Shown: piece by piece, positions 2,615 through 54,233 of the stretch
How the letters are laid out: every line of letters starts with the position of its first letter
How positions within the stretch are numbered: position 1 is the first letter of the stretch
Assembly (NCBI RefSeq): GCF_002355375.1
Contig: NZ_AP017312.1
Span: 737,501 to 801,500, forward strand
Origin: Aneurinibacillus soli
GTDB lineage: Bacteria; Bacillota; Bacilli; Aneurinibacillales; Aneurinibacillaceae
Direction of reading: 5' to 3'
DNA: 64,000 bases
Made by a program: the position numbers and the translations under genes
Notes under the pieces: model-generated
What the model was told of the DNA's origin: nothing
The model's database searches: none
Seen by the model: the letters and a program-made list of their open reading frames with translations, nothing else

Positions 2615-3682
<1,068 letters not shown>

Positions 3683-17791: not shown

Positions 17792-19093
<1,302 letters not shown>

Positions 19094-19116: not shown

Positions 19117-19147
19117 GAGTCCAGCTCTATAGGCTGGGCTCTTTTTT
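19117..19147 (+). terminator. terminator of the glycolytic operon
   Basis: GAGTCCAGC pairs with GCTGGGCTC (one G-T pair), followed by TTTTTT. It lies 24 bp after the eno stop. Confidence 0.9.
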
Positions 19148-19171
19148 GATGATAAAAGAGAGCTAGTGGAG

Positions 19172-19366
19172 GCGGGAATGAAGAAAAATATTTGTCTAGT
19201 TTCTTTCTGGCACTGAAGCTGAACTGTCCGCTCCATAAGCAAACGGCTGGCTCTGCCAAACATCTGGGCAGTTCAAAGATGGAGACAGTGGCAGAGCTTA
19301 TTCAGCCGTTTGCTTATGGAGCTGGGTATAGAAAGAAAAGGTCTGCATATTTTTCTTCATTCCCGC
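19172..19366. repeat. long-hairpin structured repeat, copy A
   Basis: A 195-bp element that folds on itself. The outer 20 bp (GCGGGAATGAAGAAAAATAT) are a perfect inverted repeat with 19347-19366. A second 19-bp perfect stem (CTCCATAAGCAAACGGCTG at 19231-19249 with 19303-19321) and a third, CTCTGCCA/TGGCAGAG, follow inside. The 30-nt apical loop (19259-19288) begins AACATCTGGGC and ends GGAGACAG. The block CTGTCCGCTCC (19224-19234) is bulged on the 5' arm only. No open reading frame of note. Together with copy B it fills most of the 620-bp gap between eno and the Fur-family gene. Confidence 0.85.
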
Positions 19367-19503
19367 TTACCCGCTTCTTTTTACAATCAAAAAGATCTGG
19401 AATATAGCGCGTATCCAACAAGTGGATACCTATACTATGATTATCAGATAGTACCTACGTTGTAGTCTGCGTCTTTGAGTATTCTTTTCATCAGTAGCAT
19501 CGG

Positions 19504-19697
19504 GGGTGCGTGCGGTAAAACTTCTGGCCTTTTCTTTCTGCACTTAGCGGAGCAGGTGGCGGGTCGAAAAAGAGCAGTCATTGTCTCCCGCATTGAATGA
19601 GCCCGGATGTTTGACTGCTTCGACCCGTCGCATGCGGAGCGGACAGCCTCCGCTTCCGCGCTAGAAAGAAACAGCCAAAGTTTTACCGCATGCACCC
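19504..19697. repeat. long-hairpin structured repeat, copy B (reverse orientation)
   Basis: A 194-bp element with the same plan as copy A, read on the minus strand. The outer arms (GGGTGCGTGCGGTAAAACTT with the reverse complement at 19678-19697) match at 19 of 20 bases. The internal stem is GCAGTCA/TGACTGC. The apical loop, in minus-strand reading, begins AACATCCGGGC and ends GGAGACAA, matching copy A. CTGTCCGCTCC (minus strand, 19636-19646) again lies on one arm only. The arms themselves are unrelated to those of copy A except for TTTCTTTCT. Confidence 0.85.
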
Positions 19698-19767
19698 TAA
19701 CTATTTGGAATGATTTTTAACAGAAAGTATATTATAATTAGGAGAAAGGTATAAGGAGGCTTGCTCG

Positions 19768-24492: not shown

Positions 24493-24736
24493 GGTGGTGG
24501 GAGGAAAGAAGAGAGAAGCCGTTCGCTTCGGTACGCTTGGCAGAGAAGTGTCAACTGTCCGCTCCAGAAAGCCCGGTGAACTCGCCTGCAAAAGAGGACC
24601 CACGATGTTTGTTCAGGAAGGGTTGCAGGCAAAGGCCCGTTCACCGTTCTTCTTCCGCTAGGGAATCGCGGACAGTCCATGCTTCCCTGCAAGGCGTACC
24701 AAGTGACAGGTGTCTTCCTTCTCTGCTCCTTCACTA
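24493..24736. repeat. long-hairpin structured repeat, copy C
   Basis: About 244 bp between rnr and smpB. The arms pair imperfectly over their whole length (GAAGCCGTTCGCTTCGGTAC region with GTACCAAGTGACAGG region). The internal stem is GCCTGCAA/TTGCAGGC (24584-24591 with 24623-24630). On the minus strand the 31-nt loop contains AACATCGTGGGTCC. CTGTCCGCTCC is on the 5' arm (24555-24565), and a related copy in reverse complement (GCGGACAG) lies on the 3' arm at 24668. It is about 80 percent identical to copy E in the opposite direction. Confidence 0.85.
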
Positions 24737-25457: not shown

Positions 25458-25819
25458 GGGGGCGTTCTGGATTCGACGGGGATGGTTCGAGCATGAGTAG
25501 CGAGCCGGTGGGTTGCGATTCCGTTAACAACGCAAGCGTAAATACAAACGCTAAAACACAAAACAACTTCGCTTTAGCTGCCTAATAAGCAGTAGCGGTC
25601 TTATCTCTCCATCGTCCATGTGGCGGGAATAAGACTCACCCTTTAGTGGACTACGCCTAACGCTTCCGTCTGGAGCCGAGGGAAGAGATCAATCAGACTA
25701 GCCTATCAGGTAGTGGGTTACCTGGCAGCCCGGTAGGCGAATCAACCACAGGCAACTGCGCTCGGAGAAGCTTATGTCATCGGAGTCTTCGGACGTGGGT
25801 TCGATTCCCACCGCCTCCA
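25458..25819 (+). ncRNA. ssrA: transfer-messenger RNA (tmRNA)
   Basis: The tRNA-like ends pair: GGGGGCG (25458-25464) with CGCCTCC (25812-25818), discriminator A, CCA not encoded. The T arm GTGGGTTCGATTCCCACC is clear. The reading frame is at 25541-25582 by alignment with Bacillus: NTNAKTQNNFALAA (14 residues), followed by TAATAA. The ALAA end is the usual ClpXP signal. The resume codon would then be AAT (Asn); most Bacilli use Ala or Gly there, so the exact resume point is uncertain. Pseudoknot-forming repeats follow the frame. Works with SmpB and RNase R encoded next door. Confidence 0.96.
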
Positions 25820-25860
25820 TCATACATATAGATGGAGAGAATACGAATATAAAATAAAGT

Positions 25861-47649: not shown

Positions 47650-47704
47650 GGACATGAGTAGCAAAAGATTTGTTTGATGGATGGATCTGTCCAAAGTGTA
47701 GTGG

Positions 47705-47908
47705 AGGAGCGGAGAAGGAAGCCGCCTGTCACTTCGGTACGCTTTGCAGGGAAGTGGATCAGGGCCGCTCCAGGGTTCAGGCACACTCGCCCATAAAAGG
47801 GCAGGATGTTAGGTCATGGAAGGATTATGGGCAAAAGCCCGTGCGCCCCAAACCCTTCCGCTAGGTAGCGCGTACAGGCGTTCCGTGGCGACTTCCTTCT
47901 CCGCTCCT
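47705..47908. repeat. long-hairpin structured repeat, copy D
   Basis: About 204 bp. The outer arms AGGAGCGGAGAAGGAAG (47705-) and the reverse complement at 47892-47908 match perfectly over 17 bp. The internal stem is GCCCATAA/TTATGGGC (47789-47796 with 47825-47832), where copies C and E have GCCTGCAA and GCCCGCAA, each with compensating partner. The minus-strand loop contains AACATCCTGCCC. The left arm resembles the right arm of copy C (GTCACTTCGGTACGC...GCAGGGAAG). Confidence 0.82.
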
Positions 47909-48000
47909 GCCCATACTTGGGCAGGTCGATGATCAAGCGCAATTCTTTTGTTGCTTCGCCCCGCTGATTGTTTTTATTTTTTGATCCAACTTTGTTTGGG

Positions 48001-48204
48001 AGGAGAGAAGAGAGAAGTAAGAGAGCGCCTGTACGCTTATCTCCCAGCGGAAGGAGAACGGCGAACGTGCCTTTGCCCGCAATACCTCAGTGAAGAAACA
48101 TCGTGGGTCCTCTTTTGCGGGCGAGTTCGCCGGGCTCCTGGAGCGGACAGTCTAGACTTCTCTGCCAAGCGTACCGAAGCGAACGGCTTCTCTCTTCTCT
48201 ACTT
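48001..48204. repeat. long-hairpin structured repeat, copy E
   Basis: About 204 bp, in tandem with copy D between the acidic orphan gene and acnA. Outer arms AGAGAAGAGAGAAG (48004-48017) pair perfectly with 48187-48200. Internal stem GCCCGCAA/TTGCGGGC (48075-48082 with 48115-48122). Loop with AACATCGTGGGTCC on the plus strand. GGAGCGGACAG (the CTGTCCGCTCC block on the minus strand) lies at 48140-48150. On the minus strand it runs parallel to copy C with roughly 80 percent identity. Confidence 0.83.
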
Positions 48205-48232
48205 CCATCACTAAGCCTTGTCGATTCCCAAA

Positions 48233-48270
48233 AAACAAAAAGAAGAGCGGTCCTGTGTCGGGACCGCTCT
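48233..48270 (-). terminator. terminator of acnA
   Basis: On the minus strand AGAGCGGTCC pairs with GGACCGCTCT, followed by TTCTTTTTGTTTTTT. Confidence 0.92.
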
Positions 48271-48303
48271 CTTTGCTGTGTGTATATGAGGATGGATTAA
48301 AAA

Positions 48304-54127: not shown

Positions 54128-54233
54128 TTCTTATCAAGAGAAGGCTGAGGGACTGGCCCAATGACGCCCGGCAACCGGTATAGATATACACGGTGCCAAA
54201 TCCAGCAGGAATATAATTCCTGGGAGATAAGGA
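54128..54233 (+). ncRNA. S-box (SAM-I) riboswitch
   Basis: The conserved core is clear: CTTATC-AAGAG, GGCTGAGGGACTGGCCC, GATGCCCGGCAACC-like (ACGCCCGGCAACC), GGTGCCAAATCC, and GGGAGATAAG. P1 pairs CTTATC (54130-54135) with GATAAG (54226-54231). A terminator follows at 54261. Binding of S-adenosylmethionine ends transcription before metH. Confidence 0.97.

Follow-up and report, generated by a model that had tools for sequence, protein, structure and literature searches.

Convergent hairpins with a constant loop and variable arms beside the enolase gene of Aneurinibacillus soli: candidate halves of a non-autonomous mobile element

Several known systems combine foldable DNA with dispersal or with unusual evolution of the stems. 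REP/BIME elements, which go with Y1 (RAYT) transposases, are palindromic DNA of 20-40 bp, often paired in alternate orientation. Bacterial MITE-like repeats such as bcr1, NEMIS, RUP, ERIC and EFAR are said, in the available extract of PMC3733652, to keep terminal repeats of 15-30 bp. Group IIC introns, according to the available extract of PMC3898094, insert next to intrinsic terminators by reading a DNA hairpin. Finally, hairpins maintained by template switching have been described for RNA genes, where the arms undergo paired changes without wobble intermediates (available extract of PMC8794818). The hairpins described below share features with each of these; CC-licensed PMC texts yielded no literature on the hairpin family itself.

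We analysed a window of 64,000 nucleotides from the 4.117-Mb genome of A. soli (G000), in which two long hairpins, A and B, lie downstream of a gene that we take from its sequence to be enolase (eno; Table 1). The outer arms of A (19172-19191 and 19347-19366) pair at 20 of 20 positions and those of B (19504-19523 and 19678-19697) at 19 of 20, and the 211 nt around each hairpin fold with z-scores of -10.7 for A and -7.8 for B, none of 200 shuffles being as good. A sequence-only reading of this stretch had proposed that A and B share an apical loop, a box and a T/A-rich block, that each arm pairs with its own partner, and that the near-equal lengths point to one architecture; the pairing counts confirm the second point, the lengths support the third, and an alignment of A with B confirms the first, with AAACATCYGGG, TTCAA and GGAGACA common to both loops and the block TTTCTTTCT/AGAAAGAAAAGG aligning between them. 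The same reading had described the box as bulged on the 5' arm, which holds for CTGTCC, mostly unpaired in A, and not for GCTCC, which in A pairs with GGAGC. Its statement that the ends vary and the inside is fixed likewise stands for loop, box and block; in aligned A-type copies the inner stems vary too, not just the outer arms, so that the constant part is the unpaired sequence together with the T/A-rich block. With up to one mismatch, the 11-mer box was found 5 times in the window, against 0.76 expected by chance.

Table 1 Features of the window discussed in the text (window positions; basis or remark in the last column)
Feature	Position	Strand	Basis or remark
Gene eno (presumed enolase)	17807-19093	+	Upstream of the block; same-locus homologues in 11/11 genomes searched
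Intrinsic terminator of eno	19117-19147	+	Coordinates by eye; T-tract ends one base before the block
A+B block	19149-19703		555 bp; missing at the syntenic G006 site, flanks adjacent
Hairpin A	19172-19366	+	195 nt; pairing and fold
Box CTGTCCGCTCC of A	19224-19234	+	Motif scan
Apical loop motif of A	19258-19287	+	Loop pattern match G000:C1:756758-756787
Hairpin B	19504-19697	-	194 nt, convergent with A; pairing and fold
Apical loop motif of B	19582-19612	-	Loop pattern match G000:C1:757082-757112
Box CTGTCCGCTCC of B	19636-19646	-	Motif scan
Copy C, related E type	24495-24735	+	After a terminator-like hairpin; G006 site not clean
Copy D	47700-47910	+	
Copy E	47990-48207	-	Convergent with D; terminator-like hairpin follows at 48235-48279

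Facing each other, A and B form the two halves of a single 555-bp block directly after the eno terminator. At the syntenic site of G006, a close relative with mostly 87-97% nucleotide identity to G000 over shared blocks, the terminator is kept and the block is missing exactly, both hairpins and the spacer included, with the flanks adjacent. This gap could alternatively be a precise deletion, although the loop was not found near eno in five other members of the genus either (G001 to G005; for G003 within 357 nt after eno only).

The loop pattern recurs in all 11 genomes of the window's family-level group, very likely Aneurinibacillus and kin, with 164 matches (8, 1, 2, 18, 5, 8, 5, 31, 55, 1 and 30 in G000 to G010, in this order) and in none of 10 genomes outside the group; read backwards it has no match in any genome scanned. 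A re-examination of the pattern covered the 11 group genomes and 4 of the 10 outside ones. A scan of contigs gave at least 120 stretches, and 78 of the 80 matches listed are from Aneurinibacillus; the other two, in unrelated MAGs, look like chance. A plasmid collection held no match to the hairpins, and the single match among viral contigs joins the same family. So far no member of the family has come from outside Aneurinibacillus and its closest relatives. The eight matches in G000 are of the A type; their hairpins measure 184-200 nt and match the box at 9 to 12 of 12 positions. All fall in five convergent pairs: A/B, those at 722 kb and 3436/3440 kb, and those of the 540-kb and 594-kb copies; the partners of these last two exist in G006 but are lost or without apex in G000. 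A second type, E/D, to which window copies C, D and E belong, has at least 39 further long matches in G000 at 81-91% identity and forms 12 convergent pairs whose spacers are shared in part; these copy numbers are lower bounds, as scoring covered 40 of 184 candidates. Those of G008 are underestimates as well, since assembly gaps (N) lie inside large hairpins on its scaffolds L278, L280, L284 and L296. Two Aneurinibacillus hairpins, L069 (sp. Ricciae_BoGa-3) and L171, carry a similar extra sequence of ~100 bp, located in both at the same position of the 3' arm, ~60-170 nt beyond the loop.

In kind, the hairpins are close to bacterial MITE-like repeats. Like these, as portrayed in the extract of PMC3733652, they are ~200 nt each, non-coding, intergenic, foldable, in high copy and without a transposase of their own; unlike them, as far as that extract goes, they have A-type outer arms that vary by copy or subfamily around a fixed loop and box, and they form convergent double-hairpin inserts on the terminator side for which no parent was found. 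Measured against what defines a MITE, they are small, dispersed and multi-copy, with precise presence/absence junctions at 3 of the 10 sites compared with G006, namely A/B and two E/D pairs; as to terminal inverted repeats, the A-type arms vary by copy, and E/D pairs have similar ends.

Further signs of mobility come from named Aneurinibacillus genomes, in which copies up to 100% identical have different flanks, and in which the left edge is sharp, mostly 84-91 nt before the loop, in unrelated flanks. One copy is nested inside another hairpin of the family, and its joined flanks resemble uninterrupted relatives; TGA flanks both edges, and no target duplication was seen in comparison with these relatives. 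Among seven E/D loci compared with G006, two are exact (inserts of 589 and 607 bp), one leaves 12 bp and four are not clean; the sites of window copies D/E and C are not clean. At the D/E site G006 keeps the spacer and the 3' arm of E, while D and most of E are missing, so that hairpins can also be gained or lost one at a time. The three exact sites differ in their direct repeats, with TGT (3 bp) at one, an ambiguous T run at another and none at A/B versus G006; a target duplication is not established.

One could also regard the hairpins as old, persisting palindromes, the gap in G006 then being the deletion of an unstable palindrome. Losses of this sort are seen elsewhere: G006 lacks a hairpin apex of ~100 bp with the outer arms intact (L275 ~18270-18300 versus G000 L003:1545-1645), a similar apex loss affects the G000 partner of the 594-kb copy, the partner of the 540-kb copy is likewise affected, the 722-kb copy has lost its apex or hairpin in G006, and the D/E site there is depleted as described. 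However, at the A/B site both hairpins are missing together with the spacer and the junction is exact, the loop is likewise missing near eno in the five other genus members, and there are near-identical dispersed copies, which leaves ancient persistence an unlikely explanation.

The mobile-element reading also draws on where the inserts lie. Each of the three exact inserts comes, as read by eye, after the T-tract of an intrinsic terminator. Across 46 mapped Aneurinibacillus copies (of 126 records, the others having failed the edge patterns, flank length or uniqueness filter), a terminator-like hairpin starts no more than 14 nt from the right edge in 36 and from the left edge in 4, compared with 0-4 for shuffled right flanks; only 13 of the 36 also have, on the same strand, a T tract past the stem. 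The first 8 bases of the right flank contain on average 5.8 A, versus 2.0 further out. It counts against the terminator-side count that the right edge in these 46 copies is a separate palindrome of ~52 bp, which is also found alone beside terminators. This perfect-looking palindrome (GGAAAGTATATGTTGC...GCAACATATACTTTCC; L136:6708-6767, G008) has 82 pattern matches in G008 and adjoins terminators, usually right beside a large hairpin. Among 29 G008 palindromes found in 30 loci, 11 lack the loop: by reading, six are cut by N or a contig end, three have just a 3' remnant and two are alone, and a third lone one lies in L136. A fixed target tetranucleotide, a trait of IS200/IS605 and REP/RAYT, was not found in the 46 left flanks, which have only a mild preference for A.

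In adjoining intrinsic terminators the inserts resemble group IIC introns, as far as the extract of PMC3898094 describes these; they are not such introns, having neither intron structure nor reverse transcriptase. The shared type of target (same extract) could nevertheless suggest a retro-element, in which a reverse transcriptase like that of group IIC introns, supplied in trans, would insert the hairpins downstream of terminators from an RNA copy. Group II intron domain V (RF00029) was, however, not found in G000, G002 or G006, and Rfam searches of A and B, at gathering thresholds and at E<=10, gave nothing meaningful and no group II match, so we hold such a retro-element to be very unlikely.

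The sequence-only reading had called the arms of A and B unrelated and had asked whether arms are copy-specific genome-wide. In the eight A-type copies of G000, aligned by loop, they are, each being paired with its own partner, whereas elsewhere arms are held in common, with 34 copies in related species grouped by one left-arm string. The 5' arms of A and B retain some similarity (alignment score of 6.0 versus a mean of -0.2 in 400 shuffles, p 0.005); among other partners the test gave p 0.002 at 722 kb and p 0.62 at 3436/3440 kb, and 8 of the 28 arm pairs among the eight copies reached p<0.05. These differences among copies are what one would expect if the arms were copy-specific guide or targeting segments, as that reading had suggested. 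Yet, with up to three mismatches, the 21-nt arm of A matches only its own two arms in the 4.1-Mb genome, and that of B its own two arms and a single 3-mismatch site; guide arms are therefore unsupported for A and B within this genome, and given also the residual homology between arms and the arm sets common to subfamilies in related species, we consider them wildly improbable. Nor can variable ends be held against a transposon, as had been argued, given that arm-sharing copies exist and that the A+B block is absent in G006. Genome-wide copies of A or B with common outer arms and flanking target duplications had been named as what would refute that argument; copies with common outer arms exist, and target duplications, as said, are not established.

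How the stems change bears on what maintains them. Comparing three hairpins orthologous between G000 and G006, with 148 Watson-Crick pairs in all, we counted 4 double changes that keep pairing, where ~0.13 would be expected if the two sides changed independently; 3 are transition pairs and 1 is a transversion pair, and the seven single changes comprise 2 G.T, 2 A.C and 3 others. The E/D copies (81 non-identical matches, two stems, with E and D pooled and descent ignored) contain 226 double changes, 145 transitions and 81 transversions, compared with a mean of 72 and a maximum of 92 in 200 shuffles. Their single changes are A.C in 139 cases, G.T in 58 and other in 142, and A.C exceeds G.T also in non-redundant counts (67 to 29, binomial p 0.0001) and in column events (28 to 13, p 0.03). 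An A.C excess on the box strand is a G.U excess on the complementary strand, and it is the finding that speaks most against reading the hairpins purely as DNA. In the A type, 29 cluster representatives (two chance matches included, and five with stems of fewer than 20 pairs) have G.T, A.C and other mismatches in the numbers 46, 45 and 190; all 140 sequences (121 distinct cores, two chance-like MAG sequences among the 140) give A.C 324 versus G.T 170, a count dominated by two clusters.

Covariation of this kind could mean that the hairpins are a structured non-coding RNA, either a small RNA or a 3'-UTR module, whose stems covary under selection for RNA pairing. The strong folds, an apical loop conserved across 11 genomes, E/D covariation above shuffles, the position next to gene 3' ends and the G.U-rich complement of the E/D box strand are all consistent with such an RNA. 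However, no meaningful Rfam family was found at the thresholds above, A-type mismatches among the representatives show no preference for wobble, transversion pairs are common among the E/D double changes, hairpins occur in both orientations within one insert, and the box strand folds better than its complement in only 12 of 29 cases, a weak control, passed by only 5 of 9 known RNAs in the window. On the box strand there is nothing in favour of a structured RNA, and the E/D copies lean to the other strand; overall, we consider an RNA function unlikely. Pairing kept without wobble preference on the box strand fits arm copying by template switching or selection for a DNA hairpin. Paired arm changes without wobble intermediates are also what the extract of PMC8794818 describes; there the hairpins belong to RNA genes, whereas here a mobile DNA hairpin would be concerned and the mechanism is our interpretation. 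Since paired stems change together while loops stay fixed, the stems probably serve as structure and not as address labels.

The hairpins are thus dispersed and multi-copy, occur as convergent pairs in G000, are present or absent with exact junctions, and combine a fixed loop and box with coordinated arms. We take A and B, with a probability of roughly two in three, to be the convergent hairpins of one non-autonomous mobile element, from an undescribed family read in trans via its box and loop. Such an element would be recognised in its folded DNA form, with sequence being read at the apical loop and the mostly unpaired box and the stems merely holding these in place, so that the stems would be free to drift as long as pairing holds. 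Pairing could be restored either by selection on the DNA hairpin or, through template switching during replication, by copying from arm to arm. That integration takes place beside another DNA hairpin, a terminator at its T-tract, suggests a recombinase that acts in trans and recognises DNA hairpins.

What counts against the mobile-element reading is that no mobilising gene was found and that 7 of the 10 sites compared with G006 are not exact. Neither a mobilising enzyme nor a parent transposon with the same ends was found in the loci examined, and the 14 listed clusters of ORF families near hairpins are, by reading, run-through ORFs or common paralogues, with no transposase. Y1 transposase genes occur in 6 of the 7 group genomes searched and in all 4 of the outside genomes; none of 29 Y1 loci carries the loop and one has a box-like match. 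The hairpins resemble REP/BIME in being palindromic DNA paired in opposed orientation, and differ from them in this lack of a loop-bearing Y1 locus and in a length of 195 nt. The convergent family hairpins at 3436907 and 3440777 in G000, 3.9 kb apart, were considered as the ends of an autonomous element; the gap is occupied by a 3.5-kb IS-like unit (L277:3065-6610) with a 659-aa ORF without Pfam match and two short ORFs, and because this unit has its own 27-bp inverted repeats we read it as a nested insertion and not as a parent element. One could further speculate about an element with mutable ends, in which a hairpin-tipped single-stranded DNA intermediate has one arm re-copied from the other by fold-back synthesis in each round, the ends being rewritten as a complementary pair, only the loop and box read by the recombinase being inherited, and terminator hairpins guiding integration; we regard this as a long shot.

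Small mobile elements usually have fixed ends and a free middle; in this family the rule is inverted. Its diverged and orthologous hairpins offer a natural experiment in which paired changes, transversions included, can be counted to weigh template switching against selection on RNA, and they warn that covariation by itself is no proof of a structured RNA. If there is indeed a recombinase that recognises DNA hairpins and integrates next to terminators, it would be a new kind of low-damage integrator. Outside the hairpins, the Rfam search of the window identified six tRNAs followed by a Bacillaceae-1 RNA (24-647), a tmRNA (25458-25822) and a SAM riboswitch (54128-54233).
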